Assembly (NCBI RefSeq): GCF_002127325.2
Contig: NC_035434.2
Location: forward strand, 76,949,343 to 77,013,342
Length of the DNA: 64,000 nucleotides
From: Helianthus annuus
Taxonomy: Eukaryota > Streptophyta > Magnoliopsida > Asterales > Asteraceae
Direction of reading: 5' to 3'
The position numbers and the translations under genes were made by a program. This document shows positions 1-55,794 of the stretch, in pieces (position 1 is the stretch's first letter; the number at the start of each line of letters is the position of its first letter). A model generated the notes under the pieces. That model did not search any database, was not told the origin of the DNA, and worked only from the letters and a program-made list of their open reading frames with translations.

Positions 1-525
1 GATTGCCGGCATAAAACCTCGGGAGCTAACAATCGCAGATGCCTTGTTCTTCTATTGCTTCAAATATCAGGATACAATGCAGGATATGATGCGGATCAAC
101 TAGGTGTTACAATGAGATTTGAGTACAAGTGTTTGTGTGTAGTGATTGCTAGTAGCTAGAGAGCAAATTAAGCGAAAGAGAGTGTGTGACTTAATCTGAT
201 CCGATCAATCTAGTTATAGTTAAACGAAAACAACTAACTATCCTAATAAACCAGGATGCTTCGAATATTCCTCAAGTGAACGTTGTAGTCCACTTCTTCC
301 GGGTTCAATGTCTCTCATATAACTGGTTTGCCCGAGTCTTAAGGAGAAGAGGTTCACTTGACCGTTAGAAACTTGCACCCTCTAATTTGCATGTGGTTAA
401 ATCAGTCATTACCAGGATATCACATCAGGATGTTACCAATATCCTGATCCGGTATCCTGATCACAAATAAACAATCAAAAGCAGAATATTAGTCAGGATA
501 TATGTTCAGAAAATGGCCCATAACA
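1..525 (-). repeat. Element A: 3' LTR, cut by window edge
   Basis: Matches 20904-21427 nearly base for base, so it is the downstream LTR of a minus-strand element. On the minus strand it starts TGTTATGGGCC at 525. The outer end lies left of the window, so the left target duplication cannot be read. The TATA-like stretch that is clean in the 5' copy (ctatttatag) reads ctagttatag here. Confidence 0.93.
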
Positions 526-2011: not shown

Positions 2012-2572
2012 GGCCTTAAGCGGCTAGTGTTCCTTTATGAGGATTCATGCAGGCTGAACAAGATGTTAGAGGCCAAACTGAAAAAGGCTGAAACCACTAT
2101 CGCGGACCAAGCAGCAATTGCCACTGCCAAGTCAGAGCATTATGAGGCCAAGTACAAAGCCATGACCCAGGAGCACCAAGCCGCCATCAAGAAGATCACT
2201 CATGAGGCTTAAGCCAACTCTGATGCTGCCCAAGTCCAACACCAGCAAGATATGGTTACATATCGGGAAGGCCTCAAGAACTCTGTGGTCGTTTCCCTCC
2301 TTCAGGCTAGATTGAAAATGGCCTATGAGGCTAAGGCCTTGGGGTTTGAATGCCCCTCATGGAATGTTGAGGCTTGGGAGGCGAAACTGAGGGATCTTGG
2401 CGGCAATCCTGTGGAGCATCCTACGAAACCTGTTGCTGGAGAACCTGCTAAAGTGGCCGAGAATGTGGTTGATGCCAATGTGGATGCTGGGAATGATGCT
2501 GGCGGTGATGCCAGAGGTGATGTTGAAGCGGATGCCGAGGAAGCGATGATTGAAGAAGGTGCTGCCCCTTAA

Positions 2573-4133
2573 GTGCAGCGATGTGGGCGATGATGGATGT
2601 ATGTGCCAAGGCCGGAGCCCACTTTTTAAAGTTTGATGGTTGCAGTTTGTCGAACAATTTCTGTTTCCTGTCTTTGAACAATTTACATTTTCTTCACTTA
2701 AAACAATATGATGGCCAAAGGTGGATGGGTCCTGGGTTTCAGGATGAAGCCCTTGGTCATCGGTTAGTATAACTCGTTTTGAACAGTACAACGGTTGGAG
2801 GCGGATGGATCTCGGTTTGAGATGAAACCTTCAACCGTTGTTTAAATATGGTAAGGAACCTATTGTGCTTTTGGTGGATGGGCCTCGGTTTGAGGTGAAA
2901 CCAAAAGCACAACTTTTGACATGTTAATAATATAACCTTCTTTTGACTTACCTGTTGTTGCCTTTTAAATTTTTTGTTATGCATTGTTTAGTTTAAACTT
3001 CAGTATCCCAAAATTAGTGCCATTATTCTTTGAAAATATCTTGATCAGTAATCTCAATAATATCCCATGAAGACTTTTCGTTTAATAGGGTTTTCAAAAG
3101 TCAAATAAATTTTATAAAGAGAAAAGGACAGTTTATTTTACAAAGTCCATTTTGATAATACTTGTTTGACTAGAGTTTTAGTTTTTAACCCAAGTAATAT
3201 ATCCCAAACATTCTAGCCAAATATCCTGAATCATATTCTGAGAACATATTTTGAGAATATATCCTAAAAATATATCCCAATCAGGATATATAAGCCTTAA
3301 AAATTCAAATAACTTATGTAAGGTTCACAAAGGAAAGATCATACCAGGAATAGAGTGTAACCTTAGTACCGAACTTCAACCCTTTTGCAACTCCTTCAAC
3401 TAAGATGTCCCCAGTCTTAGTATACCAGGCTCAAATTTGATTCTTTTAGCCTTACATAATCGCCTTAGGAGGACTGTCCCCTATGCATAAAGTCTTCGAA
3501 TACTTAGAAATCTTTTGAACATTAGTTTCAATCATCTGAACAGTTCTTATGTTACAGGGGGTAAACCCTAAAGTGTACTGGAGATAATTCCTTTTTATCC
3601 TGGGGATAAACCCATAGATAAACTCCAAGACTTAGAAAGGTGAAAACCTTTAAACCTTAGAGAGTATGAAAATACCCTTTAGCGAGAGAGAGAGAGGGTG
3701 ATCAATCCTCATATACCGTTAGGATCCAGGATATAGCCAACAATAACGAAATTGTCAGCCACTTTTACATGGACTGGTCCCGCTATCTTAAACTGTCCCT
3801 GGATAACTTGCGCTCCAGGCGGGGTGTTTAAACCCAATTCGAGAGAAAGGTGAATACCTTTAAACCTGTGAAGGGATCAAGATCCCTTAAACGTGAGAGC
3901 GGGGGCCAATCCTCTAATCTTTCGAAGTATCCTGAATGTGTATCCTAAATGTGTATCCTGAATGTGTATACTGCAAAACAACAATAAGCTAACGTGGATG
4001 TTAGCCTGGCTAACACCCCTCCGATGCTTAAGTCAGTAATGGGTTCAAAACAATAAATAAAATTTTAAACATATTAAAAAAATAGAATCCATACCATCCT
4101 GAGTTAGAATTCAAATTCCAAACTCACTTGAAA
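2573..4133. other. Element A spacer between antisense ORF and integrase
   Basis: Noncoding on both strands apart from chance ORFs. It holds the hairpin array at 2710-2912, a GA-rich run near 3680-3697, and many copies of the words TATCCTGA and ATATCC (for example 3210-3290 and 3925-3970). The pol reading frame enters from the right and ends at about 4134. Confidence 0.6.
2710..2912. repeat. Three tandem two-stem hairpins with different stems and a common core
   Basis: Unit 1: outer arms 2710-2721/2750-2761, inner arms TCCTG (2730) and CAGGA (2740). Unit 2: outer arms 2788-2801/2828-2841 (14 pairs, one G-U), inner arms ATCTC and GAGAT. Unit 3: outer arms 2863-2875/2900-2912 (13 perfect pairs), inner arms CCTC and GAGG. 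Every apical loop is GGTTT. Each unit keeps an unpaired GGATGG on one side and GAA on the other. Stem sequences are unrelated between units yet complementary within each. The array lies in the 3' untranslated side of the antisense ORF, and also in the genomic RNA of A on the other strand. Confidence 0.85.
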
Positions 4134-5325
4134 TAAAGTTTCAAATGTATAGCATTCTAGGATCTTGGTAACATATCCCCATCCATATTCTTGATTCGGT
4201 ATGCTCCTTTTCTTGATTCCGATTCAATTTCGTAGGGTCCTTCCCATTTCGGAGCCAACTTTCCATCTGCAGGATTATTAGTATTCATCAGAAAAGCCTT
4301 TCTCAATACCCAGTCTCCAACCTGGAACCTTCTAGTCCTTATATTCTCGTTATATGCTTTAGATATCCTTTGTTGATATGCTGCCACCCTTAGTCTTGCT
4401 ACGTCTCTTGTCTCATCAATAGTATCCAATTCCTGGCACAGGACTTCAGGATTCTGCTCAGGATCCCGGAGGCTGGATCTTGCTGTAGGTATTACCATTT
4501 CTGTCGGGATTACCACTTCTGCTCCAAATACCAAGGAAAACGGGGTTTGGCCAGTTGCACTTTTCACCGTCGTTCTATCAGCCCATAAAGCAAAGGGTAG
4601 TTCTTCTGCTCATCTTCCGTTCTTAGCTCCAAGCTTTTTCTTCAAATTGTTGACAATTATCTTGTTTGAGGATTCTGCTTGTCCATTTGCTTGAGGATGT
4701 ACTGGTGTGGATGTGATCATTTTGATTCCCCAACTCTTGCAAAAGTCAGAAGTCCTTTTACTTATAAATTGAGATCCATTGTCACAAATTATCTCAGCTG
4801 GTACACCAAGCCTAGTCAGGGTATTCCTTTTTATGAAGGATACCACTTCTTGATCTCTAACTTCAACAAATGCTTCAGCTTCAACCCACTTAGAGAAATA
4901 ATCAGTCATCGCCAACATGAAGACTTTTCCTCCTGGAGCCTTCGGCAATTTTCCTACTATATCCATTCCCCACTTCATGAATGGCCAAGGGGAAGCTATA
5001 GGATAAAGTGGCTCAGCCGGCTGATGCAATATATTACTATGTCTTTGACATGCATCACATCTTCGAGCGTATTCTGCAGCATCTTTTCTCATCATCGGCC
5101 AATAATATCCTGTTCTTAATACCTTTGAGAACAACGACCTGCCCCCAGCATAGTTACCACAATCCCCTTCGTGTATATCCTGAAGCACTTCTTTGGTTTC
5201 GGGATCTTCCAAGCACCTCAGATATGGTCCTGCAATAGATTTCTTATACAAAAGATTATTTATAATAGTGAATCGTGATACCTTCATTCTAAAGGCCTTA
5301 GGATTCTCATCCTTTGGATGTGTCC
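4134..5325 (-). pseudogene. Element A integrase
   Basis: C-terminal part of the Tat-type pol. N-terminal zinc finger (about 5040-5175) has the CDACQRH cysteines, but the second histidine of the HHCC set reads Tyr (CGNYAGG). The catalytic core follows, with Asp in GMDIVGK, Asp in CDNGSQF and Glu in NGQAESS; then a C-terminal region with GPYEIES. Stops interrupt it: TGA at 4610-4612 and TAG at 4157-4159, both where Trp fits the family. The frame continues to a TGA at about 4134. It is out of frame with RT (frameshift near 5310-5325). Non-functional as it stands. Confidence 0.88.
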
Positions 5326-7383
5326 TTCCTTGAGATATCTCATGATCGGAGCCGTCCAGGATTTAGGATCCTCTTCAGGATACTCAGCACCAGGATCCCG
5401 AACACTGACTACTTCCTTATCCTGAGGATCTGTCGCAGGATACAGGATATGTGATATTGGTATTTGGGTCCCTTTTGGTATCCTGACTGATGATCCTAGA
5501 TTCGCCAACGCATCAACCTCAGCGTTATCCTCTCTGGGTACCTGTTCAAGTGTGAAAACACCGAAATATCCAGCTAATTTTTTGACAATTTCAAGATATT
5601 CAATTAACTTCTCACCTTTAACCGCATAGGATCCATTAAAATGATTAGTAATTAACAAAGAATCAACATATACTTGCAAACTTTTGATATTCATGCTTTT
5701 AGCCAATTCTAATCCTGCAATTAAAGCTTCATAGTCTGCTTCATTATTGGTGGCAGGAAACTCACATCTAATAGCCTGGGGTAATATGTCCCCCTGTGGC
5801 GATTTTAGTAGTATACCCAAACCTACACCTCTTACATTAGACGCACCATCAGTATATAATGTCCAGGATTCTAGATTTTCTCCTAGCTGTTGTACTTCTA
5901 GGTCTACTTCATTTTGAATATCACTACTGAAATCAGCCACAAAGTCAGCTAGAGCCTGAGACTTTATGGCATTTCTAGGTTCATATACTAGATCATAGGC
6001 ACTTAATTTCACTGACCACTTTGCCATCCTACCTGACATCTCGAGTTTCCTAAGCACATTTTTTATAGGATAGTTGGTTTTAACATGAATCCTATGTGTT
6101 TTAAAATAATGTCTAAGCTTCGTTGATGCCATAACTAGGGCTAATATCAATTTTTCTAAATGAGAATATCTAGTTTTAGCATCTAATAAACTTTTACTAA
6201 CGTAATAGACAGGATACTGCTGACCTTCATGATCCTTTACAAGGACGGCACTTACTGCATTCCCTGATACTGCAAGATACAGGGATAATGGTTCACCATC
6301 CTCAGGCTTCATCAATAGAGGTGCGGTTGAAAGATACCTTTTCAAATCCTGCAAGGTTGTTTCATGCTTCTCGCCCCATTCGAATTTCTTATTCTTCTTC
6401 AGGATATCAAAAAACTCCTTGCATTTTTCCGAGGATCTTGAGATAAATCTGTTTACTGCTTCTACTCGCCCTGTTAATCGTTGAACATCCTTCATATTTG
6501 AAGGTGACTTAATATCCAGGATAGCTTTAATCTGCTCGGGGCTTGCCTCTATCCCTCTTTTCGTCACCATGTATCCTAGAAACTTTCCTGCTCCCACTCC
6601 AAAATAGCATTTAGCAGGATTCAATTTCATGTTGTACTGGTCCAAGATATCAAATGCTCCCTTAATATCCTGGAGGTGATCCTCAGCCTTCTTGGATTTT
6701 ACTACCATATCATCGATGTATACTTCCATGGTGTCCCCCAGTTTGTCTTTAAACATCATGTTCACCAGCCTTTGGTATGTTGCACCTGCCTTTTTTAAAC
6801 CAAAAGGCATAGCAGTATAACAATAAATACCTGTTCGTGTCATGAAGGCAGTATCCTCCTGATCCGAGGGTTCCATCTGGATCATCTGAAATCCTGAAGA
6901 GGCATCCATGAAGGTTAACATCACGTGGCTAGCGGTAGCATCTACCATTGAATCAATATGAGGTAGAGGAAACGGGTCTTTCGGACAAGCTTTGTTCAAG
7001 TCTGTGTAATCCACACATACTCTCCATTTCCCGTTTTTCTTTTGCACCACAACTACATTAGCCAGCCATTTAGGAAACTTTACTTCCCTAATCATCTTGC
7101 TTTTTAGTAGTCTTTCAACTTCCTCTTGGATGATCACATTTCGCTCCGGAGCAAATTTCCTTCTTTTTTGTTGGACAGGCTTGAATGACCTGTCAATACC
7201 GAGCTTATGTGTTATAATATCCTTGGAAATACCTGTCATATCCTCATGCTTCCATGCGAATGTTGACATCATGCATTTCAAAAAGTTAGTCAATTGATTT
7301 TCAATATCCTGAGGGATATTGGTTCCTACGAGCACCAAGATATCTGGGTTATCCTGATCCAGGATAATTTTCTTTACATCCTG
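5284..7383 (-). pseudogene. Element A reverse transcriptase plus two RNase H domains
   Basis: A 684-residue open stretch (5284-7338) and its upstream extension. RT shows CVDYTDLN, MPFGLKKAGATYQR and the catalytic YIDDM (6706-6720). The first RNase H (about 5950-6290) has the fold-typical YYVSKSL and ALADFVADF, but the usual first Asp is missing (LYLAVSGN). A second, archaeal-like RNase H follows (LYTDGASN at about 5835-5862, then NNEADYEAL and VDSLL), as expected for the Tat lineage. It carries only a -1-type shift at its integrase end. Confidence 0.9.
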
Positions 7384-7716: not shown

Positions 7717-8389
7717 TGTGACACCCCAGGAAAAACCAGGAAACCAACGCAACTTAACCAGCTTCCTCAGTAAGCACGAGCTAAATTTCGGGACGAAATT
7801 TTCTTAACAGGGGGAGAACGTGACAACCCTCAAAATTCCATGTATTCCGTACAATTTATTATTGATAATTAAAGTGCTTGACGACTGTGTGGAATTACTT
7901 AACTGCTTTCTGATATCTGTGATATGATTACATGTGCTTGTTAACATACTAGTAGTATGCAGAAAAGTCACTAAATAGTCCGTTATAATTTCCTAAGTGT
8001 TAGAAATTAAAAGTGTTACAAAAATATACATAAAAGACACTTTACGGATTAATTAAACACTTTAACGGAACAGTATCAAACCGAACAACCGGACCTTACC
8101 CGGAACACAAAAACATTGTCAATAACATTGTTTATCCTTTTCTGAGCCAGTTAGGGTCCCCGAACACCCTAACACCCGTTATAATACATAACACACTAGT
8201 AATTAGTTTAAACTTCTAACTAAACCAACTACCACTTAGCTATTTGATTGAAATCCAACCAATTACCCCCCCCCCCAAACCGAACGGTTCCCCTAGGGGA
8301 CACACACCACACAACTTTGATTATTTTATTAAATCTTGCCTAAAATCTAGAAGACACATTGTTTGATGGACAATACACCCATTTTGGAC

Positions 8390-8398
8390 TATATATTT
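8390..8398 (+). promoter_or_regulatory. Element B TATA box (5' LTR)
   Basis: GGACTATATATTTGC is followed about 30-50 bases later by a CA-rich start region and a CT-rich leader (8441-8465). The second LTR has the same site at 16246-16254. If transcription starts near 8420-8430, most of this LTR is transcribed. Confidence 0.55.
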
Positions 8399-9804
8399 GC
8401 TTAAAGGTTAACACTTCATTCACATAAACACACTTCACAAATTGCTCTCTCTCTCTCCCTCTTCTCCTTGTGTAATCGGCAGCCATCACTACCCACCATA
8501 GCACCACCATCAAGCCACTTTCTAACCATTTTCTACATACACAAAGGTGCTAGAGATCATACGAGGAGACTCGGTGCTTTCGGAATCTCAAGAACCTCTC
8601 TACGTTGCTTTTATCCACCTTGTTTTCGCTTTGATTCTTCCCTAGCCTTGAGCTTGTTGTAAGTGCTCCTAAACACTCCCTTGATCTTGTTTAAAGTGGT
8701 TAATAAGTGATTTAATGGCTAAAAACCAAGAACACACAAGATCATAACTTAAAGACTTGAAAATAAGATGAATATGTTGGATAAAGAGTAGATGTGTGTG
8801 TAAATCATGTAGATCTTGTGTTGTTATGATTCTTGTTGATTTCATGATGATTTTTCTGGTTAATATTGATGTTTGATGCTGTTGTGATCACTAAACATGT
8901 TAACGGAATTAATCGAACACAAATTAAAGAGTTAAAAACTGAAACAGAAAGCTGTTTGGTTTTTACAGGCAACTTCAGTTGGCTATAACAGGACCATAAC
9001 TTAACGAAAAATATATTTTCTGAAGTCTAGATTTATATACTATGAAATACGGTTCTAATGGCACCTGAATCGTAATTTTTGGACTTCGTTTACTATTTCT
9101 AAAGACCCGATTTGTAACAGCAGCTAGAGCTGCATTTTTACTGCAGAAAATGGGCGATATGTTTTCAGTCATAACTTGAGTTCTGTGTCGAATCAGTCCA
9201 TGAAATCTGTACAATAGATGGACACTGATGTCGTAGTAATTGTCCCACTGGAATTTCGTCAATCCGAGATACAATGAATTGTTAGTGAATTATTCCGCGG
9301 GCTGCAGTCAGAAAATAATGAATCTGATTGCAGTCCGGAAAATGATTTTTAATAAAATATTGGTGATGAATTAGATCCCGAGATTTTTACACAATAATAT
9401 CTGGGTCGTTTAGCATCTTCTGTAAGAATTTGGGAATTTTTGAAATAAGCTAACTATTTTATTAAAATGCTCGAAAACAGCCCAGTTTCGGATAATTAAG
9501 TTGAAACGACATAAGTAGTGATTTGCGTGTCTAAATGTCGAATATGTTATCTGTGAATGATCTAACATGTTATGTGTCGATAAAAGTGTTATGTGTGATG
9601 TCATATGTTATTTGTGAGCGGGAATGGATGGGGAGTTTATATAGGCATAAACCGCTAAAGTAATGCATGCTGTGTGATAGATACGTGTAGGAACTTTGTG
9701 CTCTATTTGAAAACCACTAAATGATTAACTGGTAATTATATTAGGACGTGATTGACTGACCTCGACTGTTAGCTATATTTGAGAATCTAACCGAGCAAAC
9801 CAAG

Positions 9805-10439
9805 GTGAGTTCACACACTTTCTAAGGCATGGGATTCCCGGTGGTTTGGGAATAGGTTAAAGAATTAGAACGGAATCTACATATCTTGCTTAGGTAGGAT
9901 ATGTACGGCCATCCTCCTCGGGTAGGATGCCAGTATTAATCCTGCGTATTCTCTTTGGGAGAACTACGTACGTTCGTCCTCCTTGTGTAGGACAACAACC
10001 TTAAACTTACTAGACAAAACTCTGTCATAAGTCCCTCATTTTATATCGACTTAATCGCCGAGGCCAATGGCGAGCGGGTCATAAGTTAATAGCGCTATTA
10101 GGTTTAATAAACCTCACACCGTGCCAGTCGGACGGGCGTGTACTAATGGACTATAGCAAACCATCATTGATGATGGACACTGATGTAGGGCACAACTTAC
10201 TTGCGTAGTAGTCGATATCATACGGTCTAGTAGTTCACATGGGGAAGCCCCCACTAATTATAAATATGGTCTGGGTAATAAAGAATGAACTGGTTAATCT
10301 TACTTTCAACTACGGGGTAACCCCCACGGCAATTACGCCAACGAAAGACAAACCACGTTTTCAGAAACAACTTAAAACTAAACAACCAAACATGAACTCA
10401 CTCAACTTTGTTGTTGACTCGTTGTTACATGCCTTACAG
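9805..10439 (+). other. Candidate leader intron in B 5' LTR
   Basis: Donor CCAAG|GTGAGTTC and acceptor ACATGCCTTACAG|GTCG. The equivalent sites exist in the 3' LTR (17655-18287), in D (28688-29124, 36065-36500) and in F (48413-48887). A stronger upstream donor (GTAAGTGC near 8656) could extend the intron. Confidence 0.42.
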
Positions 10440-10769
10440 GTCGCTAAATGCTTGGAGCTTGCACGAGGAAGGAGTCGTTGTGGTGTACGGACTGTTATGT
10501 CCCGTGCTTAATATTTAAATCCTTATGAACTTATTAAATCTACGTTTGAATTTTAAACTTATGGACTATGAACTTATATTTTGGTATCACGTAGTATGCT
10601 TCCGCTGTTTATTTTGAACATGGTTAACTAGCTCTTGGTCACCAATTATATTGTAGTTGGTTTTATTTACTTAATTAAGATGTTCAATATGATTGGTGGC
10701 TCGATCCTGGTCACATCACGCCTCCAAGCGGTGGTACTCCGCATGGTGGATTTTGGGGGTGTGACAGAT

Positions 10770-10782
10770 TGGTATCAGAGCC
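10770..10782 (+). promoter_or_regulatory. Element B primer-binding site
   Basis: TGGTATCAGAGCC, three bases after the LTR, complementary to the 3' end of plant initiator tRNA-Met (established for many plant LTR elements). Confidence 0.92.
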
Positions 10783-11059
10783 ATTGGTTATAGTGAACTT
10801 TGTTTTAAAAAGGGAAAAGTTTTTGATAAGACCAGACGGTACAGTGCTCAACCATCCACAACGACGCTTCACTCCACGTGCAAGACTCGACACCATAGGT
10901 GGTATGATTTATGTTATATTGTCGGTTAGATAGTTTACACTGTGCATTAGTTAACGTGATAATGCTATTTGAACCTTGTGTGCTTACTCTCTTCTGTCAC
11001 CCCACACTTACGCACGTTGCGATACCTTTCTTACCTGTGTTCCCCTCGATGTGAAGATC

Positions 11060-14000
11060 ATGAGTGGGCGTCTCAACATGACCCAGGGTCAGCTGACGAC
11101 CTTGATTAACGAACGGATTGCTGAAGCCTTAGCAACCCAATCAGGGAGTCAACCCATGCACACCCAATCCCGCATGGGCACCTTCAGGGCGTTCTTGGAG
11201 TGTAAACCTCCCACTTTCGATGGCACTAGAGGGACAATCGACCTTCTACACTTGATCCGAAGAATCGAATATACGTTCGAAGAAAGTGAAAGTCCTGCTG
11301 GCAAACGAGTAGAGTACGCTACTGTCATGTTGCAAGGGAAAGCGTATTCTTGGTGGAACGCACAAGTTCAGATGCTCGGGCTGGCAGACGTGAATGCCAC
11401 CCTCTGGAGCGACTTCAAGGATTTGATTAAGGAAGAATTATGCCACCTGGACGACATTCTGAAACTTGAAATAGAGTATTATGGTTTGAAAATGGAAGGA
11501 TCAGAGATTGAGGCGTACACAAAGAGGTCCAACGACTTGGCTGCCTTATGTCCTAACATGTCACAACCCATATCTAGGCGAATCAAGCTATACCTCAGAG
11601 GCTTAGTCCCGGAAATCCAAGGGCCTGTGAGTGCGGCCAACCTTCCCACAATCCAGCAAGTCGTTCGTTTGGCGCACCAACTCACTGATCAGGCGGTGGA
11701 AGAGGGAAAGTTGCGCAAGCGTAGCTCTTCTAATTCAAATTCTCTTAATAGTAACAAGTATATTTGGGGTGAGCACCAAGGTGAGGGTCCTAGCTCTATA
11801 CGACGGAAACCGCACAGGAAACTCGGGCTGAACTACCAAAATCAGGGGGGATACCTAGGGAATAAACCGAGATGCCGCAAGTGCCAACGGCACCACAGCG
11901 GGTCATGTGCGGAATCGTGTTGTCATCGGTGCAAGAAGTTGGGACATATGGCTAGAGACTGTAGGAGCCCATATCCTGCAAACCGGAACCAACGGCAACA
12001 CCAGCAGGGTAATGAGAGATGTTACCAGTGCGGTGCTGAGAGTCACTTCAAGAGGAACTGTCCGCAGATGAGACAGAATCGTGACAACAGCGGCAACGAG
12101 GTCAACGGGAACAATAAAAGAGACAATCAGGATAACCGCAGGACTGGTAAGCATGAGCTTCTGAATGGACAAGAGGAAGAGGGAAACAACCTCAACGTTG
12201 TGGCAGGTAAGTTCCTACCAGACAATTTCTTTGTTTCTATTTTAGTTAATTCGGGTACAGATATGTGTTCCTAAGAGTTAGTCAGGTGCTTAAGTGTACC
12301 CCATTACCCTTAAAACACCAAACATGTTGTAGAACTAGCTAATGGTGAAAGTCTTAAGGGCACACATGCAGTTAAGGGTTGTAACCCCGCCTTAGCTGGT
12401 CAGACCCTCTCTATCGACCTCATTCCTATGGTTCTGGGTAGTTTTGACGTTGTCATTGGGATGGATTGGTTATTTCGACACTAAGCGGAGATTATTTGCA
12501 AGGAGAAAATCGTCCGTATCCCTCGTTCTGATAAAGAACCCCTCGTGATTTGTGGCGACAAGAGTGGTGCTGTTGTAGGCATCATCTCTTTCCTTCAGGC
12601 CCAGAAGTGTTTGCGAAAGGGCCACACCGCTATTCTAGCCCTCGTTTCCGATGCATCCGCGGAAGAAAGGTAGATAGAAGACATTCCTATTGTGCGCGAC
12701 TTTCCCGAGGTATTTCCTGAGGAATTACCTGGTCTTCCGCCTCATCGCTAAGTTGAATTTCAAATCGAGCTAACTCCTGGAGCAGCGCCCATAGCTCGAG
12801 CACCTTATCGTCTAGCTCCATCAGAACTCGAAGAACTATCTATGCAACTACAAGAACTCTTGGAAAAGGGTTTCATACATCCTAGCTCTTCGACATGGGA
12901 AGCTCCAGTGTTATTCGTAAAGAAGAAAGACGGTACCTTCAGAATGTGTATTGACTACCGCGAACTCAACAAGGTGACCGTGAAGAATCGTTATCCTCTT
13001 CCACGCATTGATGACTTGTTCGACCAGTTGCAAGGGTCGAGCTTCTATTCTAAGATTGACCTAAGGTCAGGCTACCATCAGCTGAGAGTCCGAGAGGAGG
13101 ACGTCTCCAAAACAGCATTCAGAACTCGTTACGGCCATTACGAGTTTCTAGTTATGCCTTTCGGATTAACGAATGCACCTGCAGTCTTCATGGATCCCAT
13201 GAACCGAGTGTGCAAGCCCTAGCTGGATAAGTTTGTCATAGTGTTCATCGACGACATCCTGATCTATTCTAAGAGTCAGGAGGAACACGAGCAACACCTG
13301 AGGCTTATTCTGGAACTTCTTCGAAAAGAGCGGTTGTATGCCAAGTTTTCGAAATGTGACTTCTGGCTTCGCGAAGTCCATTTTCTGGGCCATGTGGTAA
13401 ACAAGGATGGGATTCATGTTGATCCATCCAAGGTTGACTCGATCAAGAACTGGCCTGCACCCCGTACGCCAACAGAAATCCGCCAATTCTTGGGTTTGGC
13501 AGGGTATTACAGAAGGTTTGTCAAGGATTTCTCCAAGATTGCGCAACCTCTCACTTCACTGACTTAGAAGGGTGTCACCTATCGTTGGGGTGATGCACAG
13601 GAGTCCGCATTTCAACACTTGAAAGATAGACTTTGTAGCGCACCTATCCTCTCATTGCCCGAAGGCACAGAAGATTTTGTGGTTTATTGCGACGCTTCCA
13701 TCTAAGGACTTGGTTGTATGTTAATGCAACGTGACAAGGTCAATGCCTACGCATCGCGCCAACTTAAGGTTCACGAAAGGAACTACACTACACACGACTT
13801 GGAATTAGGAGCAGTTGTTTTCACGCTTAAGATATGGAGACATTACCTGTACGGTACCAAGTGCACCACTTACACCGATCACAGGAGTCTCGAGCATATC
13901 TTCAAGCAAAAGGAGTTAAACATGCGTCAACGCCGATGGGTCGAACTCTTGAACGATTATGAATGCGCGATCAAGTATCATCCGGGCAAAGCCAATGTTG

Positions 14001-15664
14001 TGGCTGACGCCCTCAGTCGAAAGGATACTATACCCAAGCGTGTACGTGCTTTACAGCTTACCATCCAATCCAACCTTCCCGCTCAGATTCGCGATGCTCA
14101 GGTTGAGGCATTGAAAGCAGAGAACATCAGGGCTGAGTCCCTACGAGGATCGAGGCAACAGATAGAACAAAAGGAAAACGGTGCCTACTATGTTAACAGA
14201 CGCATCTGGGTTCCACTATACGGAGACTTACGCGAGCTTGTGATGGATGAAGCACATAAGTCTCGTTATTCAGTACATCCTGGTTCGGGTAAGATGTACC
14301 ACGACCTAAAGACTACATACTGGTGGCCTGGTATGAAAGCCAGCATAGCAACCTACGTCAGCAAATGTTTGACTTGTGCGAGAGTCAAGGTCGAATACTA
14401 GAAACCATCAGGTCCACTCCAACAACCAGAGATACCTAAATGGAAATGGGAGCAAATTTCCATGGATTTCGTTACTGGCCTGCCCAGATCTCAACGCAGG
14501 AATGATACCATTTGGGTGATCGTGGATCGACTGACCACGTCTGCACATTTTCTGCCTATCAAGGAAACGGATAAGTTTTCTACCCTAGCAGACATCTACC
14601 TGAAGGAAGTGGTATCAAGGCACGGAGTGCCAACCTCCATCATTTCTGATCGTGACGCACGTTTTACCTCTGAACTGTGGCAAGCTAGGGACAAGTCTTT
14701 TGGCTCAAGTTTAGATATGAGCACCGCTTATCACCCACAGACGGATGGGCAATCTGAACGCACCATCCAGACCCTTGAAGACATGCTTAGGGCATGTGTA
14801 ATCGAATTTGGTAACGGATGGGAAAAGCATCTCTCGTTAGTGGAGTTCTCATATAACAACAGCTACCACACCAGCATCCAGGCCACTCCGTTCGAGGCAT
14901 TATATGGAGGCAAGTGCCGATCACCTCTCTGTTGGGCAGAAGTTGGTGACAGCCAAATCACTGGCCCAGAACTCGTAATAGATACGACCGAGAAGATTGC
15001 TCAGATACGACAACGAATGGCGGCAGCTCGTGACCGTCAGAAAAGCTATGCTAATAAGCGAAGAAAGCCACTCGAGTTCCAGGTTGGGGATCGGGTGCTA
15101 CTCAAAGTCTCACCATGGAAAGGTGTAGTTCGTTTTGGCAAACGAGGCAAGCTCAACCCGCTTTATGTCGGACCGTTCGAGATCATTGAGAAAATTGGCA
15201 AAGTCGCTTACAGGCTGAATCTACCGACAGAACTCAGCGGAGTTCACAATGTTTTCCATGTGTCGAATCTGAAGAAGTGTCTGTCAGATGAGACCCTCAT
15301 AGTTCCCTTAAAGGAGCTCACTATCGACGACCAGCTGTGATTCGTCGAGGAACCAGTAGAGATTACGGATCGAGATGTTAAAATTCTCAAGCGTACCAGG
15401 ATACCTCTTGTCCGAGTTTGTTGGGATTCCCGTCGTGGCCCAGAGTATACCTGGGAACGAGAAGACCAAATGAAACTCAAGTATCCCCAGTTGTTTAAGA
15501 AAAGTGCAACCACTACTAAGACTGAAGCTACTGCAGAATTTCGGGACGAAATTCCAAAACAACGGGGGGATGATGTGACACCCCAGGAAAAACTAGGAAA
15601 CCAACGCAACCTAACCAGCTTCCTCAGTAACCACGAGCTAAATTTCGGGATGAAATTTTCTTAA
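11060..15664 (+). pseudogene. Element B gag-pol polyprotein with ten nonsense codons
   Basis: A single frame of about 1535 codons. Gag starts MSGRLNMTQ and has two zinc knuckles (HRCKKLGHMARDC, YQCGAESHFKRNC). The protease motif is NSGTD instead of DSGAD, so the catalytic Asp is lost. RT has CIDYRELN and [10 protein letters not shown]; then RNase H, an integrase zinc finger and core, GPFEII, and a chromodomain-like C-terminus (about 15340-15480). Stops at 12272, 12311, 12482, 12671, 12749, 13220, 13565, 13703, 14399 and 15338. Most replace codons that are Gln or similar in D. The frame crosses the polypurine tract and ends 91 bases inside the 3' LTR. Confidence 0.93.
15537..15573 (+). promoter_or_regulatory. 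Element B used polypurine module (stem + G-run)
   Basis: Inverted repeat AATTTCGGGACGAAATT (15537-15553), then AACGGGGGGATGA directly before the 3' LTR at 15574. This is the upstream of two such modules. Confidence 0.8.
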
Positions 15665-18614
15665 CAGGGGGAGAATGTGACAACCCTCAAAATTCCATGT
15701 ATTCCGTACAATTTATTATTGATAATTAAAGTGCTTGACGACTGTGTGGAATTACTTAACTGCTTTCTGATATCTGTGATATGCTTACATGTGCTTGTTA
15801 ACATACTAGTAGTATGCAGAAAAGTCACTAAATAGTCCGTTATAATTTCCTAAGTGTTAGAAATTAAAAGTGTTACAAAATATACATAAAAGACACTTTA
15901 TGGATTAATTAAATACTTTAACAGAACAGTATCAAACCGAACAACCGGACCTTACCTGAAACACAAAAATATTGTCAATAACATTGTTTATCCTTTTCTG
16001 AGCCAGTTAGGGTCCCCGAACACCCTAACACCCGTTATAATACATAACACACTAGTAATTAGTTTAAACTCCTAACTAAACCAACTACCACTTAGCTATT
16101 TGATTGAAATCCAACCAATTACCCCCCCCCCCTAACCGAACGGTTCCCCGAGGGGACACACACCACACAACTTTGATTATTTTATTACATCTTGCCTAAA
16201 ATCTAGAAGACACATTGTTTGAAGGACAATACACCCATTTTGGACTATATATTTGCTTAAAGGTTAACACTTCATTCACATAAACACACTTCACAAATTG
16301 CTCTCTCTCTCCCTCTTCTCCTTGTGTAATCGGCAGCCATCACTACCCACCATAGCACCACCATCAAGCCACTTTCTAACCATTTTCTACATACACAAAG
16401 GTGCTAGAGATCATACGAGGAGACTCGGTGCTTTCGGAATCTCAAGAACCTCTCTACGTTGCTTTTATCCACCTTGTTTTCGCTTTGATTCTTCCCTAGC
16501 CTTGAGCTAGTTGTAAGTGCTCCTAAACACTCCCTTGATCTTGTTTAAAGTGGTTAATAAGTGATTTAATGGCTAAAAACCAAGAACACACAAGATCATA
16601 ACTTAAAGACTTGAAAATAAGATGAATATATTGGATAAAGAGTAGATGTGTGTGTAAATCATGTAGATCTTGTGTTGTTATGATTCTTGTTGATTTCATG
16701 ATGATTTTTCTGGTTAATATTGATGTTTGATGTTGTTGTGATCACTAAACATGTTAACGGAATTAATCGAACACAAATTAAAGAGTTAAAAACTGAAACA
16801 GAAAGCTCTTTGGTTTTTACAGGCAACTTCAGTTGGCTGTAACAGGACCATAACTTAATGAAAAATGTATTTTCTGAAGTCTAGATTTATGTACTATGAA
16901 ATACGGTTCTGCACCGGAATCGTAATTTTTGGACTTCGTTTACTATTTTTAAAGACCCGATTTGTAACAGCAGCTAGAGCTGCATTTTTACTGCAGAAAA
17001 TGGGCGATATGTTCTCAGTCATAACTTGAGTTCTGTGTCGAATCAGTCCATGAAATCTGTACAATAGATGGACACTGATGTCGTAGTAATTGTCCCACTG
17101 GGATTTCGTCAATCCGACATACAATGAATTGTTAGTGAATTATTCCGCGGGCTGCAGTCAGAAAATAATGAATCTGATTGCAGTCCGGAAAATGATTTTT
17201 AATAAAATATTGGTGATGAATTAGATCACGAGATTTTTTCACAATATTATTTGGATCATTTAGCATCTTCTGTAAAAATTTGGAAATTTTTGAAATAAGA
17301 TAACTATTTTATTAAAATGCTCGAAAACAGCCCAGTTTCGGATAATTAAGTTGAAACAACATAAGTAGTGATTTGCGTGTCTAAATGTCGAATATGTTAT
17401 CTGTGAATGATCTAACATATTATGTGTCGATAAAAGTGTTATGTGTGATGTCGTATGTTATTCGTGAGCGGGAATGGATGGGGAGTTTATATGGGCATAA
17501 ACCGCTAAAGTAATGCGTGCTGTGTGATAGATACGTGTAGGAACTTTGTGCTCTATTTGAAAACCACTAAATGATTAACAGGTAACTATATTAGGACGTG
17601 ATTGACCGACCTCGACTGTTAGCTATATTTGAGAATCTAACCGAGCAAACCAAGGTGAGTTCACACACTTTCTAAGGCATGGGATTCCCGGTGGTTTGGG
17701 AATGGGTTAAAGAATTAGAACGGAATCTACATATCTTGCTTAGGTAGGATATGTACGGTCATCCTCCTCGGGTAGGATGCCAGTATTAATCCTGCGTATT
17801 CTCATTGGGAGAACTACGTACGTTCGTCCTCCTAATGTAGGACAACAACCTTAAACTTACTAGACAAAACTCTATCATAAGTCCCTCATTTTATATCAAC
17901 TTAATCTCCGAGGCCAATGGCGAGCGGGTCATTAGTTAATAGCGCTATTAGGTTTAACAAACCTCACACCGTGCCAGTCGGACGGGCGTGTACTAATGGA
18001 CTATGGCAAATCATCAGATGATGGACACTGATGTAGGGCACAACTTACTTGCGTAGTAGTCGATATCATACGGTCTAGTAGTTCACATGGGGAAGCCCCC
18101 ACTAATTATAAATATGGTCTGGGTAATAAAGAATGATCTGGTTAATCTTACTTTCAACTACGGGGTAACCCCCACGGCAATTACGCCAACGAAAGACAAA
18201 CCACGTTTTCAGAACCAACTTAAAACTAAACAACCAAACGTGAACTCACTCAACTTTGTTGTTGACTCGTTGTTACATGCCTTACAGGTCGCTAAATGCT
18301 TGGAGCTTACACGAGGAAGGAGTCGTTGTGGTGTACGGATTGTTATGTCCTGTGCTTAATATTTAAATCCTTATGAACTTATTAAATCTACGTTTGAATT
18401 TTAAACTTATGGACTATGAACTTATATTTTGGTATCACGTAGTATGCTTCCGCTGTTTATTTTGAACATGGTTAACTAGCTCTTGGTCACCAATTATATT
18501 GTAGTTGGTTTTATTTACTTAATTAAGATGTTCAATATGATTAGTGGCTCGATCCTGGTCACGTCACGCCTCCAAGCGGTGGTACTCTGCATGGTGGATT
18601 TTGGGGGTGTGACA
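15574..18614 (+). repeat. Element B 3' LTR
   Basis: Second copy of 7717-10766, ending GGGGGTGTGACA. It contains a second stem and G-run (15641-15675) followed by TGTGACAACCC at 15676, the alternative LTR start used by D. Confidence 0.95.
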
Positions 18615-18619
18615 CCGAC
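18615..18619. repeat. Target-site duplication of B, right copy (CCGAC)
   Basis: Matches 7712-7716 exactly. The A protease frame resumes from here. Confidence 0.95.
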
Positions 18620-19555
18620 GAGCACAGTGGATTTCAATGTAATATCCTTCGGGGATACATTCATCCTCTTCAATGTTTCCAGTTGAATTATATTGACGGA
18701 GCTGCCGTTATCTACCAGTATCCTACGTACAAAATGGTTAGCTACATATAATGTGATTACTAGAGCATCATGGTGAGGATCCTGAACAGTATCCCTGTCA
18801 TCACTATCAAAAGTGATCACTTTGTCAGTTGTAAAGGTCGTCATCCTGGTCGACTTTTCTCCTCTTTCGGCTTTAGCCTCCTTTGCATGTCTCTTGGCCG
18901 CAGAATATGAAGTCCCACAAATGTCAGATCCTCCTGAAATAAAGTTAATTATCTTAGCATCTGCAGGAGGTGATGCTGCTCGTTCGGGATCCTTCTCAGG
19001 ATCTTGTCCTTTATTCTTCTTTTTTCCCAGTAGATCCTTCAGATACCCCTTGCTTAGGAGGTAGCTTATTTCTTTCCTTAGAGCGATGCAATCCTCAGTG
19101 ACATGTCTGAAATCCTCGTGGAAGGCACACCATTTGGATTTATCCTTCCAATCAGCTTTTTGTTGATTCTTCCGAGGCCACCTGGCTTTGTCTCCTAAAC
19201 CCTGCATAGCATACATCAGTTCAGGTATATTAACAGAAAAACAGTATTCAGATAATTCAGGATATTCTTCAGGATCCTCGTCTTCTACAGCATTCACTTT
19301 CTTGCTGTCATTTCTGCCATATGGCTTAGAGCGATATGGTTTATACAAGGATTTTGATTTCCTATTGGTCGACTCATAGGTTGTAGATGAATTCATCCTC
19401 TCTTGCATCTTTTTATCATCCTCCAACCAAATATATCTCAGAGCCCTGTTGCGAGCTTCGTCCAGATTTCTGCAGGGATTCATTACAAGATCCTGGTAAA
19501 ATTGAGAATCCTTTTGCAACCCCATCTTGAAAGCTTGCACAGCATTGCAACATCA
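18620..19555 (-). pseudogene. Element A gag C-terminal part and protease N-terminal part
   Basis: Minus-strand frame from about 19540. It has a basic/charged gag region, a CAFHEDFRHVTEDC segment in place of a classical zinc knuckle (typical of Tat gag), an Asp/Glu/Lys-rich linker and the protease active site LVDNGSS (18697-18714). The frame is continuous with 7716 once B is removed. A 1-base deletion near 19546-19549 separates it from upstream gag. Confidence 0.87.
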
Positions 19556-20619
19556 AGATGCGGGATATCTAAGGATTCCCGACTAAATTTATTCATATAA
19601 TCCCTCAAGGATTCCTGGGGTCCTTGAGTTATCCTGTAAAGATCACTGGTTAGTTTCTCAAAACTTCGGCTGCAGGAAAATTGACTATTAAATAAATTAA
19701 CCAAATGAGCAAATGAAGTAATTGAGTGAGGAGGAACGTTTAAGAGCCATTTTAAAGATGATCCTATTAAGGTAGAACCAAAACCCTTGCATAAGCATGC
19801 TTCTTTGAGATCTGATGGAATAGGGTTGATTTCCATCCTTTCCCTATACTAGGCAATATGCTCTTCAGGATCCGTAGTTCTGTCGTAGAGTTTCATGTTG
19901 GGGGTCTGAAATCCTTTTGGGATTTCAGCATCACAAATAGGATGCGCAAACCGGGATATCCTGTGGCTGTCCTGGGATACTTCTGGTATTGGCTAGACCA
20001 CCCCAGGCACACTGGATATCATGTCCTTTAACTTCTGAAGCTCCCTAGATAGTGCTGACGTCATACCTGCATCCTTCAAAGATCCAACACCGTTAGTGGC
20101 AAGAGTATTATTATTAGATACATTACTGATCTGAGGATTCTTGCCATATCCTGAAGCATATCCTGAGCTTCTCACAGTTGATACTCTTACTGAAGAGGGT
20201 ATCTTAGGAGTATGATTCTGGGAATGGCTAGGCACAATATTTCCCCGGTTATCCTCAGTATAGACTGCAGAACTGAAGTTCAAAGCCCTGGGCTGCAAGG
20301 GAGTGATAGTATCTTCAACAGGCCTGCTCGAGCCGGATTTCATGAGTTGTATTTCTCTCATCAGCATTTGATTAGTTTCCTGCTGCTGCCTCATCTGTTC
20401 CTGTACACTACCAAACAAATTTAGAATTTCCTCATTAGAAGCTAAAACAGGACCAGATCCCTGGATATTGCGAGCGGGGATAACATCCCAGGCCACATGA
20501 ATTTCAGTTCCTTGGGAAGAGGCTTGAGATCTCGGAGGAGGTGGTGGAAGCACCAAACCAATTGTTGCAGAGGTTGTAGCAGACACAGTGGAAGAGCTCA
20601 TGTTTGATCTCAAGGCCAT
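19546..20619 (-). pseudogene. Element A gag N-terminal part
   Basis: Likely start is the ATG at 20617-20619 (MALRSNMSSS), since reading further upstream runs into the primer site. A Pro/Ser-rich head and a Gln-rich helix (about 20370-20440) lead to the retrotransposon gag core (GSSLKWLLNVPPHSITSF). TAG stops at 19993-19995 and 19849-19851, plus a frameshift near 19546, make it non-functional. Confidence 0.82.
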
Positions 20620-20702
20620 TGTAAATACTGTAGCGAAAAGTTTTGAAAATAGAAAACCAAGTAACGATTTTGCAAAAGCTTTTAGTAGAAATAGCACCAC
20701 TT

Positions 20703-20720
20703 GCCCCACGGTGGGCGCCA
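20703..20720 (-). promoter_or_regulatory. Element A primer-binding site
   Basis: Minus strand TGGCGCCCACCGTGGGGC, three bases from the LTR end. It is unlike the initiator-Met site of the other elements and of the TGGCGCC class common in Tat/Athila elements. I do not assign the tRNA. Confidence 0.8.
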
Positions 20721-20723
20721 AAT

Positions 20724-21427
20724 TGTTTTGGTCAAAAATTACCGAAACAATTAAGTGATCAAATTTGTTTAGTGAGGTAGTGTGCTAGAAATGCGTGTTA
20801 AAAATATTCAAGTTAAGTTATTTGCTAGAACAGTTTCAAGATACGGCTCAGGATATAGAGCTAGATCGCCGGCATAAAACCTCGGGAGCCCTTGATCAAT
20901 CTAGATCGCCGGCATAAAACCTCGGGAGCTGACAATCACAGCTGCCTTGTTCTTCTATTGCTTTAAATATCAGGATACAGTGCAGGATATGATGCGGATC
21001 AACTAGGTGTTACAATGGGATTTGAGTACAAGTGTTTGTGTGTAGTGATTGCTAGTAGCTACAGAGCAAAGTGAGCGAAAGAGAGTGTGTGACTTAATCT
21101 GATCCGGTCAATCTATTTATAGTTAAACGAAAACAACTAACTATCCTAATAAACCGGGATGCTTCGAATATTCCTCAAGTGAATGTTGTAGTCCACTTCT
21201 TCTGGGTTCAATGTCTCTCATATAACTGGTTTGCCCGAGTCTTAAGGAGAAGAGGTCTACTTGACCGTTAGAAACTTGCACCCTCTAATCTGCACGTGGT
21301 TAAATCAGTCATTACCAGGATATCGCATCAGGATTTACCAATATCCTGATCCGGTATCCTGATCACAAATAAACAATCAAAAGCAGAATATTAGTCAGGA
21401 TATATGTTTAGAAAATGGCCCATAACA
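20724..21427 (-). repeat. Element A 5' LTR
   Basis: 704 bp, TGTTATGGGCC to CCAAAACA on the minus strand. A segment GATCGCCGGCATAAAACC is tandemly duplicated (about 20866 and 20904, 38-bp period). TATCCTGA words cluster near 21340-21365. TATA box at 21113-21122. Confidence 0.95.
21113..21122 (-). promoter_or_regulatory. Element A TATA box
   Basis: Minus strand CTATAAATAG inside the 5' LTR, a good plant TATA consensus. The 3' copy of the LTR has lost it. Confidence 0.5.
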
Positions 21428-25094: not shown

Positions 25095-25546
25095 TGTTGG
25101 TGCATATGTCTGTTGACTTCGTCTTGTATCGAGTCTTGTATTAGTCTAGATAGATCAGGGCACGAAAAACGAGAAATGTGTAGAAAAGACCATTTCGCAC
25201 GAAATGGTATGTGACCATTTCGCACGAAATGAGGTGTTGATTTCGCACGAAATGGAGAGAAGTCCATTCCGTACAAAATGCCATTTCGCATGAAGCTGTT
25301 CTGTGTGAAATAAGCAGTCTATATATAGGTGCTTTGGGTTTGTCATTTGTAACGATTAGATTCCGGTAGCGAAGCTCTGCCGAAGTGTCTCCAACATTGT
25401 AAAACGATCTGATATCAATACAGAGACAGTTTAAAGTGATTTCTTGTGCAAACTAGCTGAAATAACTCCGATACATCTGTTCCCGCCTTTTGTATTGGAC
25501 GAGATCTCTTCTGAATGACTCGTTTCGGTCTGTAAACGATCCTACA
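25095..25546 (+). repeat. Element C 5' LTR
   Basis: Contains the word CATTTCGCACGAAATG several times and a TATA box (25320-25327). It is 25 bp longer than the 3' copy because that copy lost one unit between direct repeats of GACCATTTCGCACGAAATG. Confidence 0.94.
25320..25327 (+). promoter_or_regulatory. Element C TATA box
   Basis: CTATATATAGG in the 5' LTR, conserved in the 3' LTR near 40752-40760. Confidence 0.6.
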
Positions 25547-27174: not shown

Positions 27175-28121
27175 TGTGACAACTCGAGTTTCCAAGATTT
27201 CCAGTGTCGTACTATTGCACGTTAATTGTTTGGATTGTTTGTTTTCACAACTTGGTTGTTCGCAACTGTGCACGTATTGTGATGTATATGATTTATATGG
27301 TGTGGGGATTTAGTGTGTATGTAATATATGTTTTGTTTAATAGCGTGCCTAATATCAACAAACTTAGAATCTATGAAATCACCCTCATGAAAACACTTTC
27401 TGGTGAAAACACAATATGTGTTTTCGTCCAAAAATGCCCAACGAAATTAAGTTGGGCTTTGGCCGAATAGCTTTTAGTTTTAAATGTTAGCTTCCAAACT
27501 ATACGAACAGTTTTTGCAATCGGCAAACCCTAGAGTCCTTGTTTTCTGTGTGACGGCAACAATTCTTTTCGTGAAGCTTTTCCTTATTCCTTCTCTATTT
27601 TCGGTTAGTATGATGTTTCATGTATTGAATGAAATTCCCTTCTATCGCATGCCTAGTTGTACTGATTTTTGATTACTGATTATGTTGTATGATATCTCTT
27701 ATATATGTTATCTGTCTACATGATATATCGGTGGTTGCTTGTGATCCGATCTAAATGCGTAAACTATATTGTTGATATGATGTGTTGCTTTGGATACCGT
27801 CATGTAGATGGGATTATGTAATCAACCATGGGCGCCTGATGTTGATGATTTCGTATGTTAACTGTTATATATATTGGTTAATAATATCGATCGTGTGTGC
27901 CTGTTATGATAGAATAATGATTGCAAACTGATTGTATAAACTGCTAGAATCTGGTTAGGGTTGTTGCTGTAATACGTAACTGCTGTTGATGATGATTGAG
28001 ATCAGCGAAATCACAGACACCACAAAAACACAAGGGTCAGACGAAAACCCTTTGTGTTTTCGTCACACCTCATGTTCAACCAAACCCCCCCCCCCCACAA
28101 AATCCCTGTTCTCAACGAAAA

Positions 28122-34552: not shown

Positions 34553-36787
34553 TGTGACAACTTGAGTTTCCAAGATTTCCAGTGTCGTACTATTGCACGT
34601 TAATTGTTTGGATTGTTTGTTTTCACAACTTGGTTGTTCGCAACTGTGCACGTATTGTGATGTGTATGATTTATATGGTGTGGGGATTTAGTGTGTATGT
34701 AATATATGTTTTGTTTAATAGCGTGCCTAATATCAACAAACTTAGAATCTATGAAATCACCCTCATGAAAACACTTTCTGGTGAAAACACAATATGTGTT
34801 TTCGTCCAAAAATGCCCAACGAAATCAAGTTGGGCTTTGGCCGAATAGCTTTTAGTTTTAAATGTTAGCTTCCAAACTATACGAACAGTTTTTGCAATCG
34901 GCAAACCCTAGAGTCCTTGTTTTCTGTGTGACGGCAACAATTCTTTTCGTGAAGCTTTTCCTTATTCCTTCTCTATTTTCGGTTAGTATGATGTTTCATG
35001 TATTGAATGAAATTCCCTTCTATCGCATGCCTAGTTGTACTGATTTTTGATTACTGATTATGTTGTATGATATCTCTTATATATGTTATCTGTCTACATG
35101 ATATATCGGTGGTTGCTTGTGATCCGATCTAAATGCGTAAACTATATTGTTGATATGATGTGTTGCTTTGGATACAGTCATGTAGATGGGATTATGTAAT
35201 CAACCATGGGCGCCTGATGTTGATGATTTCGTATGTTAACTGTTATATATATTGGTTAATAATATCGATCGTGTGTGCCTGTTATGATAGAATAATGATT
35301 GCAAACTGATTGTATAAACTGCTAGAATCTGGTTAGGGTTGTTGCTATAATACGTAACTGCTGTTGATGATGATTGAGATCAGCGAAATCACAGACACCA
35401 CAAAAACACAAGGGTCAGACAAAAACCCTTTGTGTTTTCGTCACACCTCATGTTCAACCAAACCCCCCCCCCCACGAAATCCCTGTTCTCAACGAAAACA
35501 CATAAGTGTTTTCGGCCCAAGTTATGATTTCGGCCCAATTGTGTTTTCGGCCCAACAAGTGTTTTCGTTCTACAGTGTTTTCGCCCAAGAGAGTTTTCGG
35601 CCCATATAGTGATTTCGGCCCAAACAGTTTTCGGCTCAATGTGTTTTCGGCCCAAGCTTGGTTTTCGCCCACTAAGTGATTTCGTCTAATGATCTGTGAC
35701 TAGTATATTACTCGTTAACTCCATTAGTGTTTAACTTTGTTAAGTAAACGTGTAACTCTGTTATGCATGCCATCTCGGTTAAGTTTGTTAAGTATGCCAT
35801 CACCGTTAGTTTATTATCTCTGTTAAAGAGTAACCATGTTAGAATAAATTATGAAAGACCGTTATGTGAAACATGAAATTGTATGCACATGATTAACTGT
35901 TTGTGCTGTATGATGATTAACTGTCAAACACACTCTGTGATATTACTGCGATGCTAGTTACATGTGAAACATTACGAACGTGAACTGATTGAGTATACGT
36001 GCACTATAGGACGTGACTGATTATTTGTGAGCTTGCATTCCTTTAGCATACCGAGCAAACCAAGGTGAGTTCACACAGCCAAGGCATGGGTTCCCGGGTG
36101 GGAATGGGATTTGATGAATTGTTGTACATACTCAGCTGATAGAACCTAACGATAAGATACGACTAGACTAGTAACACTTACTGAACTGATCTTCGCACAC
36201 CTGCCAAGGGTTGGCCGCGATATTATGACTGACTTCGCACACCTGCCTTAGGAAGGCCGCGAACTGAACTTACTGATCTTCGCGCACCTGCCTGGTAGGC
36301 CGCATACAAATAAACCTAGTCTAGAATACTTGGGAGGAACATCCCCTAACATCTTCGCATACCTGCCTGGGAGGCCGCGATGGAATTATGATACATGACA
36401 TAAACGAACGAACATACTATTACTCACACTATACTATTACTGAACTGTTAACTGTGAACTCGCTCAACTAGATGTTGACTCTCTGCTGCATGCCTTGCAG
36501 GACCTTAGGTACTTATGGAGCTTGCACAAGGAGGAGCAGGTCGTTGTGGGATTCGGATCGTAGACTTTATGCTAAACAATAGAACTTATAACTTTACTTT
36601 GGATTTTCATTATTACGCTTCCGCTATTGATACTATGTTTGGTTTAGAACATCAATTGTATTGAATTGGGTTTTACAAACTACCTTATTTATATTATGCT
36701 ATGTTCAATATGATTGATGGCTTGATCCTGGTCATGTCACGCCTCCAAGCGGTGGTACTCCGCGTGTGGATTTTTGGGGGTGTGACA
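34553..36787 (+). repeat. Element D 3' LTR
   Basis: Near-identical copy of 27175-29411, ending GGGGGTGTGACA before ATAAA. Confidence 0.95.
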
Positions 36788-52055: not shown

Positions 52056-52304
52056 TGTCACACCCCGACTGCGTGTAACATGCAACCGCGGCGGAAAACG
52101 TCGGGGAGTGTTGTGGACAGAATTAATTGTTATACAACCATGGAAATTAAAGTTACACTTTATTTATCAAACACGGGTGTTACATTGTCTTAAAAGGAAG
52201 TACAGAATTCAAAACATAGTTATACTAGTTCTATCTTCATTTTTTTTAGTCTCTAAGGCACAGGTCCGCCCTAGTATCGTGATCAACAACTTATGGAACA
52301 GCTC

Positions 52305-55777: not shown

Positions 55778-55794
55778 AATTTCGTCCCGAAATT
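55778..55794 (-). promoter_or_regulatory. Stem and polypurine module of H
   Basis: AATTTCGGGACGAAATT on the minus strand overlaps the pol stop codon and is followed by AGTAGCGGAGAC and the LTR start at 55759. Only one module is seen, unlike B and D. Confidence 0.7.

Follow-up and report, generated by a model that had tools for sequence, protein, structure and literature searches.

Antisense genes are widespread in Retand retrotransposons and their function is unknown (PMC11963269, PMC7264820). In the survey by Vicient 2025 (PMC11963269), antisense open reading frames bearing the TRP28 domain are reported for 97% of Retand clusters, the sole exceptions being two Helianthus clusters, and clusters 4 and 5 of Helianthus annuus are given as being without TRP28. 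Tandem arrays are described there in the POL-3'LTR region of about half of the recently active Retand elements, and the terms 'hairpin', 'secondary structure', 'stem-loop' and 'inverted repeat' have no occurrence in the main text of that paper. The antisense gene of Grande is transcribed from its own promoter, and in maize Grande and, at a weak level, in Silene Retand the matching region is reported to give antisense transcripts (PMC7264820). No report of hairpins in Tat elements of the kind described below was found in the open-access titles and abstract openings of the best-ranked papers.

A stretch of 64,000 nucleotides of Helianthus annuus DNA (hereafter the window), plant DNA rich in Ty3-type retrotransposons, was analysed here, and an array of three hairpins was found in it that has the appearance of a structured RNA element not described before. 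The evidence on the hairpins comes from these three units, in one decayed element copy within the window.

Hairpin architecture and paired changes

The tandem hairpins are located on the + strand at 2710-2761, 2788-2841 and 2863-2912, and each folds into a stem, an internal loop, a second stem and a terminal loop, which bears out the three hairpins proposed in the initial annotation for 2710-2912 and sets the exact borders of the units. In unit 1, the outer arms (2710-2722 and 2749-2761) are paired at 12 of 13 positions with one A.C mismatch, and enclose GGATGG (2723-2728) opposite GAA (2746-2748), an inner stem (2729-2734 and 2740-2745) and the loop GGTTT (2735-2739). Unit 2 consists of outer arms at 2788-2802 and 2827-2841 (14 of 15 positions paired, with a C.A mismatch beside the loop), GGATGG at 2803-2808, GAA at 2824-2826, an inner stem at 2809-2813 and 2819-2823, and GGTTT at 2814-2818. 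Unit 3 has outer arms at 2863-2875 and 2900-2912 that are free of mismatches (13/13 Watson-Crick), with GGATGG at 2876-2881, GAA at 2897-2899, an inner stem at 2882-2886 and 2892-2896, and GGTTT at 2887-2891. The outer stems are thus 13, 15 and 13 positions long and the inner stems 6, 5 and 5 bp, and the expectation that every arm pairs with its own partner with at most one mismatch held, the numbers being 1, 1 and 0 in units 1, 2 and 3. The 30-nt core of the units is a direct repeat. GGATGG, GGTTT and GAA are identical in all three units and the inner stems differ yet pair, in agreement with the first reading of the sequence; that GGATGG is constant was likewise correct, but it is not a bulge, since GGATGG and GAA together form a 6 x 3 internal loop. 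The pair of the inner stem that adjoins this loop is R-U in every unit on the + strand.

Duplex energies of arms with their own partners (-15.9, -23.0 and -18.1) were set against those of the six crossed combinations, which ranged from -8.8 to -2.7. In a sequence alignment of the three units, standard pairs occupied 54 of 56 pair cells and both sides had changed in 12 of 20 pairs, as expected from the earlier proposal of covariation within one molecule. Neither value was equalled in any of 500 shuffles, a contrast that is partly built in because the structure was derived from the same three sequences, and slid registers left only 25-53% of the cells paired. Compared pairwise, units 1 and 2 differ on both sides in 6 of the 13 outer pairs, five of these six being standard in both units; unit 3 differs from unit 2 on both sides in 8 of 13, all eight standard in both, and from unit 1 also in 8 of 13. 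The hypergeometric probability for the coincidence of changes across the two sides of the stem was 0.086 (units 1 and 2), 0.035 (1 and 3) and 0.007 (2 and 3). For units 1 and 2 alone, equal pairing was kept in 11% of random placements, and the coincidence of two-sided changes between these two units is weak and not striking.

Relationship of the three units

When the 13-nt outer arms of units 1 and 2 were compared in a fixed register, 6 and 5 identities, 7 and 8 transitions and no transversions were counted, so that all 15 differences at the 26 sites are transitions. The 13 nt upstream of the arms contain 8 identities, 4 transitions and 1 transversion, and the 13 nt downstream just 5 identities, 2 transitions and 6 transversions. 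Purine/pyrimidine (R/Y) identity over the 5' arm and its upstream flank was 25/26, a value matched by 1 of 1,000,000 shuffles; it was 22/23 without GGY (8 of 1,000,000 shuffles) and 10/10 for the ten arm positions beyond GGY (818 of 100,000 shuffles). This transition/transversion test was picked after the outcome of the global alignments was known: by global alignment score, the arms of units 1 and 2, and likewise those of units 2 and 3, did no better than shuffles, and for units 1 and 3 the 5' and 3' arms stood at 4.6% and 20% of shuffles, respectively.

In a local alignment of 2694-2784 with 2774-2859, 56 identities, 22 transitions, 8 transversions and 5 gap columns were obtained, which marks an apparent decayed tandem duplication (2694-2859, + strand) comprising units 1 and 2 with their flanks; neither this duplication nor the hairpin array was reported by Tandem Repeats Finder. 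Nearly all differences in the arms and the upstream flank are transitions, which gives units 1 and 2 the look of old tandem duplicates. As transitions alone separate their arms, a change from A-U to G-C can pass through G-U. Compared with either of the other units, unit 3 carries 7 transversions in each 13-nt arm, yet it pairs at 13 of 13 positions, and its stem was either replaced in a single step or altered through many paired steps. The description of the outer arms as sharing almost no sequence therefore fits unit 3 and fails for units 1 and 2.

Fold energies and strand

On the + strand, units 1, 2 and 3 folded with minimum free energies of -25.5, -26.2 and -25.7 kcal/mol and z-scores of -3.59, -4.94 and -5.26, with 1, 0 and 0 of 200 shuffles folding equally well. 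On the - strand the z-scores were better in all three units (-3.79, -6.65 and -6.80), and the energy was lower on the + strand in all three. Standard cells numbered 54 of 56 on the + strand versus 51 of 56 on the - strand; the wobble cells are five G.U and two A.C on the + strand and the reverse on the other, which is a small count. For the 438-nt region 2573-3010, z was -1.69 on the + strand (6 of 100 shuffles as good) and -2.90 on the - strand (0 of 100), and the centroid fold of the entire region retained all three hairpins. The evidence on the acting strand is thus mixed: the wobble count, the lower energies and the place behind an antisense stop codon favour the + strand, and the z-scores of the three units and of the 438-nt region favour the - strand. 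The + strand is also the first cDNA strand of the host element, and the hairpins may therefore have a role in single-stranded DNA.

A fold scan of 6,394 windows of 60 nt on both strands placed unit 3 at rank 11 (-) and 17 (+), unit 2 at rank 32 (-) and 78 (+), and unit 1 at rank 470 (+) and 645 (-). Inverted repeats with 12-nt arms number 15 in the window, two of them being units 2 and 3. Stable hairpins are common in the window, and the distinguishing feature of the array is its repeated core, stability alone being unexceptional. Hairpins with z-scores beyond those of the reported units were recorded at 25181-25300, 27401-27460, 34781-34840, 52941-53000 and 61821-61880, all five in segments present twice in the window. 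The top of the scan, 40101-40160 on the - strand (z -25 at -0.4 kcal/mol), is an artefact, its shuffles hardly folding at all.

Host element and antisense gene

Reverse transcriptase, RNase H and a second RNase H (RVT_3) are encoded on the - strand in the frame 5284-7338 and integrase (PF17921, PF00665) in the frame 4610-5287, the domain order on that strand being RVT_1 and RT_RNaseH, then Integrase_H2C2 and rve. RVT_3 (PF13456) was matched at residues 506-614 with E 2.9e-13; a second, archaeal-type RNase H behind the first is a mark of the Tat lineage. Among the 120 integrase homologues listed, of 437 in all, the top named ones are from Mikania micrantha, and those that follow include Silene, Chenopodium, Helianthus and Bidens. 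A partial 3' LTR lies at 1-525 (-), with its inner edge TGTTATGGGCC (minus strand) at 525, and is 95.8% identical to 20904-21427, a stretch that we assign to the 5' LTR. The POL-3'LTR region measures about 4.1 kb, counted from 4610, where the integrase frame ends, to the LTR edge at 525. Given the second RNase H and this long region, the host fits a minus-strand Ty3 element of Tat/Retand type, so that the placement of the hairpins in a Tat retrotransposon by the initial annotation is supported by these minus-strand domains.

At the place expected for gag and protease, minus-strand frames were found at 18515-19540 and 19993-20721, and no gag or protease family was matched in them. A nested LTR element at 7717-18614, with LTR copies at 7717-10766 and 15574-18614 that are 97.4% identical, was apparently inserted between the 18.6-21.4 kb part and the reverse transcriptase of the hairpin-bearing element. 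Repeats with units of 13 nt and 18 nt form short arrays at 3221-3262, 3927-3973 and 4483-4521, in the stretch that separates the hairpins from the end of the integrase frame. Elsewhere in the window, a repeated 3-kb segment (52056-55124 and 60936-64000) flanks a minus-strand pol frame of 1373 aa (55794-59915), and arrays of a 52-nt tandem repeat lie inside both of its copies, at 53146-53653 and 62073-62528.

A decayed antisense gene extends over 784-2572 on the + strand, with exon 1 at 784-1571 and one or more later exons reaching the stop codon at 2570-2572. The frames on either side of a 73-nt GT-AG intron (1572-1644) are in phase once it is removed, and a second intron, its borders not sharply placed, is likely before 2012. 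Two lesions mark the decay: the reading frame changes between 1059 and 1061, and a stop codon interrupts it at 2210-2212. For exon 1, 30 homologues at E <= 0.01 were obtained among 32 candidates of 0.55 to 1.75 times the exon length, all 30 being Helianthus hypothetical proteins; together with the integrase homologues they point to a sunflower or a close relative as the probable host. The TRP28 domain (PF04195) was not matched at E up to 10 in six pieces of the gene searched separately; as breaks interrupt the gene, a weak TRP28 domain cut by one of them may have escaped this piecewise search.

The three hairpins occupy the interval 138-340 nt downstream of this gene's stop codon and are therefore probably within its 3' UTR. 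The presumed 3' UTR (2573-3010, +; its end is a prediction) contains all three hairpins together with AATAAT at 2926 and TTTTGT/TTGTTT at 2972 and 2984, motifs that resemble plant poly(A) signals. The relevance of an antisense transcript, which had been suggested beforehand, gains weight from a gene with an in-phase intron that ends 138 nt before the hairpins.

Searches for related sequences and known RNA classes

A covariance model of the three units, run over the whole window with filters off, returned the three units on the + strand (E 3.1e-16 or better) and the reverse strands of the same units (E 0.0045 to 0.44); it gave no fourth unit in the window, the next match being at E 0.7. No Rfam family was matched in the window at the gathering score, and at E up to 10 five matches fell in 2600-3000, the best at E 1.7 and all below the gathering score. 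The DNA collections compared were viral, bacterial, archaeal and plasmid records. The core pattern was matched once each in 53 stretches of viral contigs, four of which passed at least 9 outer pairs or an energy below -20, and none of these four had the three-part fold by reading. A stricter core pattern matched six bacterial stretches among genome contigs, none with the fold, and the plasmid search for relatives of the hairpins returned ten weak matches (E 3 to 9). In the integrase search of viral contigs, the pattern matched nine stretches, none of which encodes a relative. A 75-aa chance reading frame through units 2 and 3, used as a protein query, gave no candidate.

Known RNA classes were also considered. 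The core of the hammerhead ribozyme is built of three stems around CUGANGA and GAAA with a UH cleavage site; each unit here has only two stems and by reading is without stem I, C3, U4, A9, H17 and a cleavage site, and no hammerhead family was among the five Rfam matches up to E 10. A tRNA or tRNA-like gene was rejected by ARAGORN, which found none in 2500-3100, and a kink-turn was set aside by reading, as its tandem G.A pairs could not be placed.

Discussion

The reading we favour, tentatively and a little short of an even chance, is that the hairpins are an array of structured RNA modules in the 3' UTR of the antisense mRNA, kept for pairing and bound by a protein that recognises the core. 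In each unit, a long stem would present two invariant parts, the purine-rich internal loop GGAUGG/GAA and the pentaloop GGUUU, the sequence of the stem being free to vary provided that pairing holds and that of the loops being fixed. It is because constant unpaired residues sit on exchangeable stems that a protein-bound RNA is proposed, and the presence of three copies suggests multivalent binding. We infer that the region is transcribed, that the + strand acts as RNA, and that a protein, either the element's own antisense product or an RNA-binding protein of the host, would bind the antisense mRNA through the unpaired core; bound copies might then affect the stability, export or 3' end of this mRNA. 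GGUUU and GAA(A) could also form pairs that bridge the internal loop, perhaps giving a compact fold, judged by reading only. A narrower form, in which the element's own protein binds the multi-copy module in the 3' UTR of its own mRNA in a Rev/RRE-like or autoregulatory antisense circuit, with stems selected for pairing only, appears improbable.

How such stems could arise is the point at which the main competing reading, one free of selected function, comes in. Template switching from a small core hairpin, in the course of replication or reverse transcription, would rewrite one arm as the complement of the other, so that perfect stems of arbitrary sequence arise or are repaired in single events, and the core-proximal GG/CC is indeed constant while the distal arm of unit 3 is unrelated and yet perfect, as a self-priming hairpin would give. 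Template switching is frequent in retroelements. That it can make perfect stems in one event, with the loop retained, is described in PMC8794818. Against this stand the transition-only arms of units 1 and 2, which are not rewritten stems, the constant loops, which it leaves unexplained, and the asymmetric GGATGG/GAA loop, which is kept in all three units and would have been copied away by priming from the inner stem; as the loop is kept, priming would have to start outside it each time. We regard template switching alone as a possible account, though an unlikely one; both processes may also operate, with template switching repairing the stems and selection keeping the loops.

Readings in which the molecule is another one fare less well. 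The hairpin region belongs to the genomic RNA, and in the sense orientation (minus strand, loop AAACC) it could serve as a signal for packaging, dimerisation or nuclear retention between pol and the 3' LTR, for which the better z-scores of the three units and the 438-nt region speak; the somewhat worse pairing on that strand (51/56 vs 54/56), the higher energy in every unit and the usual position of packaging signals near the 5' end make this quite unlikely. At the level of DNA, the directly repeated core could form three iteron-like sites of 30 nt for the antisense protein, or the hairpins could form cruciforms that lie between pol and the antisense gene and terminate the transcription converging there. 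For related elements, PMC11963269 predicts DNA binding by the TRP28 proteins, but the domain was not detected in the pieces of the antisense gene, and binding to the core needs no pairing of arms with their own partners, which is nevertheless what the arms do, so that this reading is very doubtful. Chance, or a low level of folding in a decayed tandem repeat whose structure is not kept, would profit from stable hairpins not being rare in the window; it is hardly credible beside the absence of any shuffle in 500 that matched the pairing or the covariation, the pairing of arms with their own partners only, and the wholly Watson-Crick outer stem of unit 3.

If the preferred reading of a protein-bound module is right, the RNA behind the antisense gene could serve as a well-defined bait with which to capture the protein, and would allow regulation of the antisense mRNA to be tested. 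On a small scale, the array further provides a natural experiment in which stepwise compensatory change can be weighed against repair of stems by template switching. Since Tandem Repeats Finder misses it, arrays with drifting stems and kept structure may be under-counted.

Structured RNAs placed 3' of pol, with bound unpaired residues and freer stems, are known as the CTE of Mason-Pfizer monkey virus and the RRE of HIV. The hairpins would resemble these in their place 3' of pol and in the pattern of a bound core, by description alone; CTE and RRE act in sense RNA, unlike the antisense 3' UTR reading preferred here. The GAUG before and GAA after the stem of each unit recall the hammerhead core; plant retrozymes with such ribozymes are the subject of PMC4918200. 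Domain insertions of enod40 that derive from transposable elements are likewise plant stem-loops tied to tandem repeats, and no shared sequence or structure is apparent from their description in the accessible text of PMC10578108. The closest relatives by setting are the Retand elements of PMC11963269, which are like the host in element type, region and antisense gene, and the Helianthus annuus clusters 4 and 5 among them share the lack of TRP28 with the gene pieces searched here; their arrays were found with Tandem Repeats Finder, a program that the hairpin array escapes. The array is best seen as a new RNA motif in a familiar type of location.
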